From assembly GCA_947625045.1 (NCBI GenBank), contig CANQMW010000021.1, positions 1 through 48,996 of the forward strand: DNA of 48,996 bases, in the 5' to 3' direction. Positions 14,246 through 25,884 of the stretch are shown here, one piece after another. The notes under the pieces were generated by a model. It was not told where the DNA came from. It ran no database searches and worked only from the letters and a program-made list of their open reading frames with translations. Both the position numbers and the translations under genes were made by a program. The stretch's first letter is position 1; every line of letters begins with the position of its first letter. This DNA is from an uncultured Oscillospiraceae bacterium. Its GTDB lineage: Bacteria; Bacillota; Clostridia; Oscillospirales; Oscillospiraceae.

Positions 14246-14458
14246 TCATTTCCACTGGTCTGCCGCGGCTATCCCAAAATGCTTCTGGATGCGAAAAACC
14301 ACATTTACGCTCAGGTTTGGCGGAAAATCTCCTCTTTCCAGCCGGGTGATGGTCCTGACGCTCACGCCGAGGAGAGCGGCCATCTGCCTTTTGGACAGGC
14401 CGTTTTGTTGGCGAAGGTCCGTGATATTTCGCATGAAATTGTTAAGGCTGTCATCCAT
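14246..14458 (-). CDS. Small XRE-family helix-turn-helix regulator
   Basis: A 70-residue protein consisting of almost only a Cro/C1-type HTH (residues about 8-62, LRQQNGLSKRQMAALLGVSV and then TITRLERGD). The ATG at 14458 follows GGGAGG by 7 bases. An extended -10 (TGCTAAAAT, minus strand, 14489-14494) lies 30 bases upstream. The stop is 5 bases from the stop of the convergent metallophosphoesterase. It might regulate itself or the nearby DUF559 gene; neither is shown. Confidence 0.8.
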   Translation of the reverse strand: MDDSLNNFMRNITDLRQQNGLSKRQMAALLGVSVRTITRLERGDFPPNLSVNVVFRIQKHFGIAAADQWK

Positions 14459-14540
14459 TTCTGTTCCTCCCAATCAATGACTGGAGGTATTTTAGCAGAA
14501 TGAATGAGGTAAGGTGCTCTTATATAGGTGCAAAGAAAGT

Positions 14541-14560
14541 TTTACGCCCCGGGGCGTAAA
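14541..14560. repeat. Perfect 20-bp palindrome abutting the DUF559 repeat element
   Basis: TTTACGCCCC is followed directly by its exact reverse complement. It ends exactly where the hairpin-rich repeat element begins. It could be an operator for the XRE regulator, a hairpin, or the remnant of an insertion target. Confidence 0.6.
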
Positions 14561-15008
14561 GCCTCCCCTGTGCAAGGGGAGGTGCCGAGCGAAAGCGAGG
14601 CGGAGGGGTTGTTATGGAACGCAAACATAACAGAGAACTCACGTCAAGAGCCAAAGAACTGCGTAAAAATATGACAAAGGAAGAGCGGCACCTCTGGTAT
14701 GACTATCTTCGGAAGTATCCCGTTCCTTTTTCAAGGCAAAAGGTCTTGGGAAAATATATCGTTGACTTTTATTGTGCCCAAGCGAAGCTGGTCATCGAAT
14801 TGGATGGCTCGCAGCATTTTGAACCGGATGGCATGGCGAAAGATGCAGATAGAACGAACTTTTTGTCTGACTATGACTTAACAGTCATAAGGATACCAAA
14901 TAATGAGATCAGTCAGAACTTTGACGGCGTTTGCGAATACATAGATCGGACTGTAAAACAATCCCTCAGTCAGCTTCGCTGACAGCCCCCTTTGCACAAG
15001 GGGGCCTT
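14559..15008 (+). mobile_element. Hairpin-rich repeat element carrying a DUF559 gene
   Basis: The left end (14559-14612: AAGCCTCCCCTGTGCAAGGG, then a GC hairpin and GGAGGGGTTGTT) and the right end (14960-15008: AATCCCTCAGTCAGC, a hairpin, then CCCCCTTTGCACAAGGGGGCC) are the same two halves found fused at 25773-25884. The outer ends are imperfect inverted repeats and each is also its own hairpin. The DUF559 gene fills the space between. I infer a non-autonomous or nuclease-carrying mobile repeat. Confidence 0.7.
14614..14982 (+). CDS. DUF559 domain protein, predicted PD-(D/E)XK-type endonuclease
   Basis: A 122-residue protein matching the DUF559/Vsr-like nuclease fold. The RxxMTxEERxLW opening at residues 18-28, then GKYIVDFYC with D51 and the VIELDGSQH segment (E62, D64, H68), give the likely metal site. 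Its start codon lies 2 bases inside the end of the repeat's left half. Its last codons (QSLSQLR and stop) are made from the repeat's right half, so gene and repeat move as a unit. It is clearly more AT-rich than its neighbours, suggesting transfer. Cutting activity is inferred from the family. Confidence 0.85.
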   Translation: MERKHNRELTSRAKELRKNMTKEERHLWYDYLRKYPVPFSRQKVLGKYIVDFYCAQAKLVIELDGSQHFEPDGMAKDADRTNFLSDYDLTVIRIPNNEISQNFDGVCEYIDRTVKQSLSQLR

Positions 15009-15019
15009 CCATAAGGAAT

Positions 15020-15044
15020 GCGCCCCGGGATGCCCCCGGGGCGC
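15020..15044 (-). terminator. Intrinsic terminator of prfC
   Basis: A 10-bp perfect GC stem (15035-15044 with 15020-15029) with a 5-base loop lies 3 bases after the prfC stop. On the minus strand the tail is ATTCCTTAT. Confidence 0.6.
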
Positions 15045-15047
15045 GGT

Positions 15048-16640
15048 TTAATTCTGTTTAAACTCCCGCAGCACCAATCCCGGGTTTTTCTCCTCGGCCC
15101 AGCGGATGGACCACTGGCCGCCGAAGACCAGAAGGTCGTTGCCGCGGAAGTCCTGGACCCATCGGCTGTCGGTGCCGAGATTCAGGCGGGAAAGGTCCAT
15201 GTCCCTGTTCTCCACCCAGCGGACGAACTGGTAGGGCAGGCCCCGGCGGCGCACCTCCACGCCGTACTCGGTCTTGAGGCGGTACTCCAATACTTCCAAT
15301 TGCAGCACGCCCACCACGCCCACGATGACCTCCTCTAGGCCGGCGCCGGGGGCGTGGAAAATTTGTATGGCGCCCTCCTGGGCGATCTCCATCATGCCCT
15401 TTTCGAATTGCTTGCGCTTCATGGTGTCGATGCGCTCCACGGCGGCGAATATCTCGGGGGCGAAGGTGGGGATGCCCTCGAAGGTGACTTTTTTCGCCTT
15501 GTCGCACACCGTGTCGCCGATGGCGAAGATGCCGGGGTCAAAGATGCCGATGATGTCGCCGGCATAGGCCTCGTCGATGATCTGGCGGCTGTCCGCCATC
15601 ATCTGCTGGGGCTGGGCCAGGCGCAGGGTCTTGTTCCCCTGGACATGCAGGTATTCCTTATCCCGCTCGAATTTGCCGGACACCACCCGCATGAAGGCGA
15701 TACGGTCCCGGTGGGCCTTGTTCATGTTGGCCTGTATTTTGAACACGAAGGCGGAAAAATGCTCGTCAAAGGGGTCCACGGTGCCTTCCGCGGCCTGGCG
15801 GGGCAGGGGCGGGGGCGTGAGCGCGAGGAAGCTCTTCAAGAACGGCTCCACGCCGAAGTTGGTGAGGGCCGAGCCGAAGAACACCGGGCTCAATTGCCCC
15901 TTGTGGACCTGGTCCAGGTCGAACTCATAGCCCGCCCCGTCCAGCAGCTCCACGTCCGCCTCCAGGGTCTGGCGGAGCGTGGTGCCCAAGAGCGCGTCCA
16001 GGGCGGCGGTGTCCTCCAGGGTATGCTCCTCCGCCTGGATGCGGCTGGCGCCCCGGTGGGCGTCGCCGAAGGACAATATCTTGCCCGACTGGCGGTCATA
16101 GACCCCCTTGAAGTCCCGGCCGCAGCCGATGGGCCAGTTCATGGGGTAGGTGCCGATGCCGAACTCCTGCTCCAGCTGCTCCATCAGGTCGTAGGGGCTG
16201 CGGGCCTCCCGGTCCAGCTTGTTGATGAAGGTGAAGATGGGGATATGGCGCATGGCGCAGACCTTGAAGAGCTTCCTCGTCTGGGGCTCGATGCCCTTGG
16301 CCGCGTCGATGACCATGACGGCGCTGTCCGCCGCCACGAGGGTGCGGTAGGTGTCCTCGGAAAAGTCCTGGTGGCCCGGGGTGTCCAGGATGTTGATGCA
16401 GCACCCGTCGTACTCGAACTGCATGACGGAGGAGGTGATGGAGATGCCCCGCTGCTTTTCAAGCTCCATCCAGTCCGACACCGCGTGGCGGGCGGAGGCC
16501 TTGCCCTTCACCGCCCCGGCCAGCTGTATGGCGCCTCCGTAGAGAAGGAGCTTTTCCGTGAGCGTGGTCTTGCCCGCATCCGGGTGGGAGATGATGGCGA
16601 AGGTCCGCCGGCGGCGTATCTCGTTTTTCAAGTCGGCCAT
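15048..16640 (-). CDS. prfC: Peptide chain release factor 3
   Basis: A 530-residue translational GTPase of the RF3 family, full length. G motifs are visible: H19PDAGKTT (P-loop), GISITSSV (switch I), DTPGHQDFSEDT and NKLDRE. The C-terminus carries the RF3-specific domain (GVLQLEVLEYRLKTEYGVEV). RF3 uses GTP to remove RF1/RF2 from the ribosome after peptide release and supports quality control. The ATG at 16640 follows GAGGCAGG. A promoter candidate is at 16677-16705. It stands alone between the DUF559 element and a divergent gene. Confidence 0.96.
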   Translation of the reverse strand: MADLKNEIRRRRTFAIISHPDAGKTTLTEKLLLYGGAIQLAGAVKGKASARHAVSDWMELEKQRGISITSSVMQFEYDGCCINILDTPGHQDFSEDTYRTLVAADSAVMVIDAAKGIEPQTRKLFKVCAMRHIPIFTFINKLDREARSPYDLMEQLEQEFGIGTYPMNWPIGCGRDFKGVYDRQSGKILSFGDAHRGASRIQAEEHTLEDTAALDALLGTTLRQTLEADVELLDGAGYEFDLDQVHKGQLSPVFFGSALTNFGVEPFLKSFLALTPPPLPRQAAEGTVDPFDEHFSAFVFKIQANMNKAHRDRIAFMRVVSGKFERDKEYLHVQGNKTLRLAQPQQMMADSRQIIDEAYAGDIIGIFDPGIFAIGDTVCDKAKKVTFEGIPTFAPEIFAAVERIDTMKRKQFEKGMMEIAQEGAIQIFHAPGAGLEEVIVGVVGVLQLEVLEYRLKTEYGVEVRRRGLPYQFVRWVENRDMDLSRLNLGTDSRWVQDFRGNDLLVFGGQWSIRWAEEKNPGLVLREFKQN

Positions 16641-25770: not shown

Positions 25771-25772
25771 AA

Positions 25773-25884
25773 AAGCCTCCCCTGTGCAAGGGGAGGGGGA
25801 CCGCACGAAGTGCGGTGGAGGGGTTGTCAGACAATCCCTCAGTCAGCGCTTCGCGCTGCCAGCCCCCTTTACACAAGGGGGCCT
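25773..25884 (+). mobile_element. Empty copy of the DUF559-type hairpin repeat (MITE-like)
   Basis: A 112-bp element made of five consecutive hairpins. The ends are AAGCCTCCCCTGTGCAAGGG and CCCCCTTTACACAAGGGGGC, which are imperfect inverted repeats. Its middle, GAGGGGTTGTC-A-GACAATCCCTC, joins the two halves that flank the DUF559 gene at 14559-15008. It begins 2 bases after the pepT stop. Confidence 0.75.

Follow-up and report, generated by a model that had tools for sequence, protein, structure and literature searches.

A small nuclease gene of the DUF559 family in the window (the whole stretch of 48,996 nucleotides analysed here) is proposed to form a mobile unit together with the two inverted, BoxC-like triplex repeats that bracket it, and the empty doublets of the same repeats are assumed to be gene-less relatives of this unit; we give this reading a probability of about two in three. 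That the unit in the window is mobile appears very probable, and the DUF559 nuclease is probably the mover of the repeats. Sequence comparison shows a precise unit that is found again in many genomes, occupies different sites inside a single genus and carries a repeat class in keeping with the clade of its nuclease.

The left half of the unit (14558..14612, forward strand; its start had been set at 14559 and is corrected here) reads, 5' to 3' and in the grammar common to such halves, AAAG, a pyrimidine arm CCTCCCC (14563-14569), the loop TGTGCAA, the complementary arm GGGGAGG (14577-14583), an inner hairpin, a purine run GGAGGGG (14602..14608, forward strand) that mirrors the arm at 14577-14583 as a third strand, and the tail TTGT. 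The nuclease gene (14614..14982, forward strand, 122 aa) has its ATG 2 bases past this TTGT, and takes its C-terminal codons and its TGA stop from the right half (14958..15008, reverse strand), which is inverted and follows the same grammar with the outer hairpin arms GCCCCC/GGGGGC and the tail ATTGT. Both halves are seen in further copies in the genome. The initial annotation had described the gene between two repeat halves, its start close to the left boundary and its borrowed end just as they are found here; its "two halves of a hairpin repeat" have to be redrawn, each half consisting of two hairpins and a tail and the halves being imperfect inverted repeats of each other. Aligned plainly, the two reach a score of 28, whereas controls from the same locus reach up to 34, because left and right are two sub-types, and the two-sidedness of the window unit therefore rests on the common hairpin grammar and on many other loci. 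The stretch between the halves holds no gene other than DUF559, HUH Y1 transposase genes included. A search of 14400-15100 for known RNA families gave a sole Rfam match with an E-value of 0.24, which is chance level.

The empty copy to which the initial annotation had pointed is real: at 25772..25884 (forward strand) a left half and an inverted right half follow each other 3 bases apart without a gene. A 701-base query gave 81 matches in the same genome, which has two DUF559 genes, both lying between such halves, and the stretches examined contain 28 gene-less copies, in each of which a left half precedes an inverted right half and the middle varies (four of the 28 doublets carry an extra half). 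The second filled copy has a left end of the right-half kind, and its left flank matches two places in genome G023, so that its site is without a clean orthologous match. No short target duplication was seen by eye at the ends of the empty doublets in the printed copies from this genome.

With a search pattern in which several arms could combine freely with five tails, 57 halves were picked up in the genome, 27 of them with the arm GGGGAGG and, in all 27, the tail GAGGGGTTGT; the remaining 30 have AGGG-type arms, with the tail GATTGT in 29 and GATCGT in one. The inner hairpin is variable, and 22 of its 31 distinct segments contain a perfect stem of at least 4 bp (413 of 3100 shuffles). A purine-motif intrastrand triplex needs a third strand in mirror order; an alternative duplex would need direct order. 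In a covariation test over 57 distinct arms and 259 halves from all loci, in which some arms are nested versions of one hairpin, the third strand agreed with the mirror of its own arm at 0.821 compared with 0.748 (sd 0.011) for permuted arms, none of 1000 permutations being as high, and with the direct order at 0.753, the permuted level. Counted simply as present or absent, the mirror third strand occurs in 168 of 266 halves and the direct-order one in 113 of 266. The tail was also considered as a strand of an alternative hairpin, that is, as a direct-order repeat of the purine arm, and this was rejected because direct order stays at the permuted level. The order of bases in each half follows the grammar of an intrastrand triplex motif, namely a pyrimidine arm, a purine arm and a mirror purine third strand. 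The initial annotation, correct about the pairing of the repeats with DUF559, had missed this grammar and the arrangements in other phyla described below.

The product of the gene matches Pfam PF04480 (DUF559) with an E-value of 3.4e-30 and 104.6 bits against a curated cut-off of 20.6. Structure comparison of its model revealed a resemblance to the domain of the homing endonuclease I-Bth0305I (3R3P) and to Vsr, and the modelled protein has the PD-(D/E)XK, Vsr-like fold common to the solved members of the family. Residues E24, D51, E62, D64 and H68 are invariant across 41 DUF559 sequences, and we take them to be acidic or active-site residues with a catalytic role. With I-Bth0305I and Vsr as the fold relatives of a protein whose own activity is predicted, the reading of the spread as "nuclease-driven" is therefore reasonable; to our knowledge, neither relative is bracketed by repeats of its own. 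A defence-system gene was considered and rejected, the window protein giving just weak partial PADLOC matches (DpdF, mREase_II) and YcjD, the family member in E. coli, none. The consulted portions of the open-licence PMC literature on DUF559, ycjD and COG2852 contain no link between DUF559 and repeats.

DUF559 is present in 17 of 35 genomes of the genus, some of the 35 being incomplete, and in 98 of 300 genomes of the family (56 of 106 genera sampled), several of which have more than one such gene; a scan of named genomes yielded at least 79 further loci. A pyrimidine-arm hairpin lies within about 130-150 bases of the gene on both sides in 83 of 133 clostridial loci, compared with 3 of 1779 control windows drawn from these loci; it is found on the left only in 16, on the right only in 22 and on neither side in 12, and the full two-sided form is therefore missing in about 37% of the clostridial loci. 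The 133 include repeats of one locus (L116 with L021 and L117 with L017 are on the same contigs, and L112 and L193 share both flanks) and two pieces of one broken gene counted separately (L026 and L031). Other measures gave a similar picture: the inverted-repeat score is at least 30 in 87 of 130 loci and 9 of 1888 controls, and a looser triplex grammar is present on at least one side in 128 and on both sides in 82 of 131 loci (83 and 2, respectively, of 1035 controls). The halves are conserved beside DUF559 in other genomes at a rate that argues against the chance link allowed for at the outset.

The two sides of a unit also belong together. When the hairpins were sorted post hoc into seven classes by arm and loop, with 36 of the 133 loci unclassable and left out, left and right class agreed in all 63 loci with both sides classed (34% expected from the class frequencies). 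On a tree of 92 nucleases, built from few columns, with many open forks and with near-copies that favour clustering, the repeat class changes 12 times compared with 47.6 times for shuffled labels (none of 200 shuffles as low). Clustering is seen for classes A, B, D, E and G and not for the small classes C and A2, whose 4 and 2 changes are as in the shuffles. The strongest single argument is that nuclease genes from one genus fall among types A, B and D on the tree, each with the matching repeat, and that genomes G011, G013 and G015 each carry one A gene and one B gene in different parts of it (L016 and L032 were classed from one side only). A match between nuclease clade and repeat class is thus supported for most classes. 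An ordinary nuclease gene caught in repeat-rich intergenic islands, functionally unconnected with the repeats, might be thought of since such repeats are numerous in these genomes and additional ones adjoin the unit at several loci; the both-side hairpins at 83 of 133 loci as compared with 3 of 1779 windows from the same loci, the 63 matching pairs and the clade specificity make this explanation extremely improbable and already hard to keep.

Carriers of type A and type B nucleases are rich in the matching doublets, a conclusion supported by counts within the genus. At least 15 type A doublet matches are found in 16 of the 17 DUF559-positive genomes and in 2 of the 18 without the gene (Fisher p 6e-7, with a cut-off chosen post hoc and kinship uncorrected), and at least 25 in all 11 carriers of a type A gene and in 5 of the 24 other genomes. 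The DUF559-positive exception is G010, whose gene is of type D; G017 and G029 have many type A doublets, and the genus-genome search found no DUF559 in either. Type B half matches, counted with 26 candidates scored per genome, number 26-33 in the five type B carriers, which rank within the top 7 of the 35 genomes, and 0-20 in the other 30 except G017 and G032 (28). The type D unit of G010 gave two matches, both of them its own halves; for that of Flavonifractor plautii ATCC 29863 there were three, the unit's own halves accounting for two. Neither genome has a dispersed stock, and amplification of empty copies is therefore not universal. The mobile unit with a nuclease first proposed for the window is supported in part by the recurrent association of repeats and gene, the empty doublets and the match of clade and class, and has to do without such amplification as a general property.

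A link of copy number with the gene would also arise if the doublets spread otherwise and DUF559 were a homing gene that targets the centre of its cognate doublet and is copied in between the halves, since such a gene would persist where its targets abound; that the gene sits at the centre of the doublet and that its fold matches the I-Bth0305I domain fit this explanation as well. It is a serious alternative to unit mobility, and we nevertheless consider it unlikely: at L182, L168 and L135 the duplicated target lies outside both halves, and neither G010 nor F. plautii, which both carry the unit, has a stock of empty doublets.

Comparison of outer-flank DNA, which should work within a genus and may fail between genera where the DNA is too diverged, found nine groups of loci sharing both sides, four of which are one-locus repeats, and the 12 type A genes of the genus fall into 10 flank groups. 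Within one genus, the flanks place the unit at different sites. Two shared places hold units with different hairpins, one (L086 and L094) read as recF-gyrB and the other (L147, L165 and L170) as the front of rnhA. At the window site, compared across 29 loci (L056, L076 and L082 not covering it), the same unit occurs in G011 only, and G032 has a broken DUF559 there. In the filled orthologous locus of G011 (L020) a GC-rich terminator-like hairpin precedes and follows the unit, the two copies agreeing nearly exactly over 28 bases. In the window the right copy (15020..15044, no strand assigned) is terminator-like, several unit-less orthologues having a single such hairpin by eye, and the left copy (14544..14557, no strand assigned) is reduced to a GC-rich palindrome, possibly a remnant of a duplicated terminator hairpin, of 10 bases and a score of 20, within the control range.

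Direct repeats flanking the unit with a score of at least 40 were found in 12 of 127 loci and in none of 6000 crossed pairs. Five of the 12 (L155, L092, L108, L111 and L028) are largely the same kind of repeat, that of L185 continues into a repeat next to it, and the cases of L095 and L027 are less clear-cut. Cleaner duplications are those of L168 (40 bases, 5 mismatches), L135, L179 and L020, and also that of L182, which has 67 bases and one mismatch and directly adjoins the left half; shorter adjacent pairs occur at L148 (17 bases) and L093 (14 bases). Some units thus have a long and variable target duplication of 14 to 67 bases, and most show none. The target duplication to be looked for according to the initial annotation is accordingly present in some units and has no short constant length. 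As for sites that lack the repeat, the place in G023 that is orthologous to the site at 25772 (L203) has no doublet; its terminator differs as well, and this pair therefore does not fix the exact ends.

We propose that a half folds when single-stranded, its hairpin taking up the mirror third strand, and that the cognate nuclease would recognise the folded half and its tail and would cut at the unit ends or at the target. Repair replication would then leave a copy at the new place, sometimes with a target duplication of 14 to 67 bases, and doublets without the gene could be moved in trans as long as both ends are retained. Any more detailed strand chemistry of this movement is doubtful at best.

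The closest known repeats are BoxC, also called PIT or TM (TMECO), which were described in the 1990s (PMC4666352). The consulted sections of Holder et al. (2015; PMC4666352) report 23 triplex motifs in E. coli K-12, among them five inverted pairs of two sub-types, high motif numbers in Neisseria and Microcystis, triplex formation in vitro by an E. coli motif with a link to genome instability, and no mobility gene near the E. coli motifs in the contexts analysed. The clostridial halves resemble these motifs as described there in having a pyrimidine arm, a purine arm and a mirror third strand in which T may replace A, and in forming inverted pairs of two sub-types (PMC4666352). They differ in that they bracket a gene, unlike the E. 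coli motifs in those sections, and in the second loop, which is an inner hairpin of ~17-25 bases in the clostridial halves and TTA or CCG in BoxC (PMC4666352). The published motif search used loops of 1-6 nt (PMC4666352). With an inner hairpin of ~17-25 nt, the clostridial halves exceed this range and are therefore called TM-like, not TM.

In layout the unit can be compared with REPtrons (TnpA-REP/RAYT, an HUH Y1 enzyme, with REP/REPIN repeats), which likewise combine one small DNA-processing enzyme gene with dispersed palindromic repeats, and REPINs are inverted doublets. The TnpA-REP enzyme and the REP repeats have co-evolved, and according to the same excerpted source tnpA-REP is mostly single-copy without evidence of mobility (PMC8266576), whereas some of the genomes considered here have several DUF559 genes. 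The enzymes are unrelated, the gene between the halves being DUF559 and not HUH Y1, and the repeats here have a mirror third strand; dispersed repeats that match the enzyme are found for types A and B and are lacking for the type D units of G010 and F. plautii. The best reading is that the nuclease-repeat unit is REPtron-like in layout and not a member of the REPtrons; it would work like a REPtron with no tested component in common. A likeness to a MITE and its parent insertion sequence, suggested at first, extends to the filled copies and the many gene-less copies with common ends. It does not extend to a short constant target duplication, none having been found (14 to 67 bases where present, and none in most units), or to a DDE transposase, which is absent from the unit.

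Outside Clostridia, protein searches found DUF559 in plasmid records of Deinococcus, Cyanobacteriota and Pseudomonadota, some of which are chromosomes filed as plasmids. In 22 chosen loci, one of them a phage record, a triplex motif lies within 200 bases on at least one side in 17 and on both sides in 7, compared with 88 and 18, respectively, of 595 control windows, which lie in the same repeat-rich stretches. No motif was found within 200 bases at the other five (E. coli K-12, Picosynechococcus, Novosphingobium, P. aeruginosa and Thermoactinomyces). The Deinococcus plasmid loci L274, L281 and L287 have exact triplex motifs in inverted array on both sides, and at L275 one motif is exact and the other has two mismatches. 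Three Deinococcus plasmids have the gene within the hpa operon, at a different junction in each; a fourth has it between paaD and paaZ. The DUF559 gene of L275 separates two genes that overlap in L274. No target duplication was found in four Deinococcus loci. N. gonorrhoeae has an exact motif after the gene and a weaker one before it; this weaker motif has a one-base second loop and is therefore left out of the motif counts for the 22 loci.

In E. coli KE47 the last codons and the stop of ycjD are read from a motif (L114 3332-3370). The corresponding motif of K-12 is degenerate (L195 2533-2559), and a full one with the loop TTA follows at 2714-2749; we read the motif beside ycjD as one of the K-12 motifs of Holder et al. 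Second loops are short in the copies from Deinococcus and E. coli. Upstream of ycjD no motif was found, and the E. coli form is one-sided. At least 80% of the ycjD query is covered in 3320 of 5426 E. coli genomes, and in those E. coli entries listed that have the gene, it always lies next to sapF. An unambiguous empty site was sought in E. coli and rejected, an efflux operon occupying the site in the three ycjD-less strains examined; such an operon at this site in strains without ycjD is described in the excerpted text of PMC12817139.

The constant place beside sapF would suit a host function, in which DUF559 is a Vsr-like repair or structure-resolving nuclease for triplex or hairpin DNA and the repeats are its regulatory or recognition sites. 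The Vsr fold of the family and a DUF559 protein that, according to part of PMC12907096, acts in a DNA-damage phenotype in Caulobacter agree with such a role; the patchy presence of the gene even within the genus (17 of 35 genomes, some incomplete), the different sites, the flanking duplications and the insertion of the gene inside other operons in Deinococcus do not, and we regard it as quite improbable. The mobile unit remains the preferred explanation. Its extension to bacteria at large is tentative, at somewhat less than an even chance: DUF559 proteins would be the mobility enzymes of BoxC/PIT/TM-like repeats across bacteria, the co-evolving partners being nuclease and triplex repeat, in the form of an autonomous unit together with gene-less doublets; this would be a class of mobile element that parallels the REPtrons and is unrelated to them, and YcjD would be the remnant partner of the E. 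coli BoxC repeats. BoxC/TM repeats have so far been orphans with no known mobility gene beside them in the contexts covered by the consulted sections of PMC4666352, and the unit may explain the spread of this long-orphaned class. Should DUF559 prove to be their enzyme, this domain of unknown function, which occurs in 56 of 106 genera sampled in the family and in E. coli, would acquire a function; a class of mobile repeats that spans phyla could then be tested in E. coli K-12, and there would be an example of a nuclease under selection for recognising a DNA shape other than B-DNA.

Several minor observations concern the surroundings of these genes. The intergenic site downstream of the gene at 15048-16640 of the window has a broken type C DUF559 in G032 (L057 / L026), another insertion between two near-identical hairpins in G015 (L073, by eye) and a type C-like doublet in G024 (L059, by eye), and by eye appears to be a repeated target. 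Type A, B and G units (L118, L127, L105, L112, L167 and L173) have the outer left sequence GCGCACTTCTATACACC in common and, on the right, AACTGTTTTACGGACACC or a near variant behind a hairpin, both by eye. A further family of short palindromes (GTCGCTGAAAGCGAC / GCGCCGCAGGCGC) borders units in the genus at L010, L019, L021 and L013 (by eye), and at L021 a further small hairpin is nested as an insertion within the right hairpin of the unit. In E. coli K-12 the 3' end of ycjD is repeated about 100 bases further on (L195 2480-2680), and the stretch between these repeats is missing in strain 167 (L197), whose ycjD is annotated as incomplete. In N. gonorrhoeae (record W01, 57113-59092) a pyrimidine-rich motif recurs seven times at a spacing of ~280 bases, with one gap.
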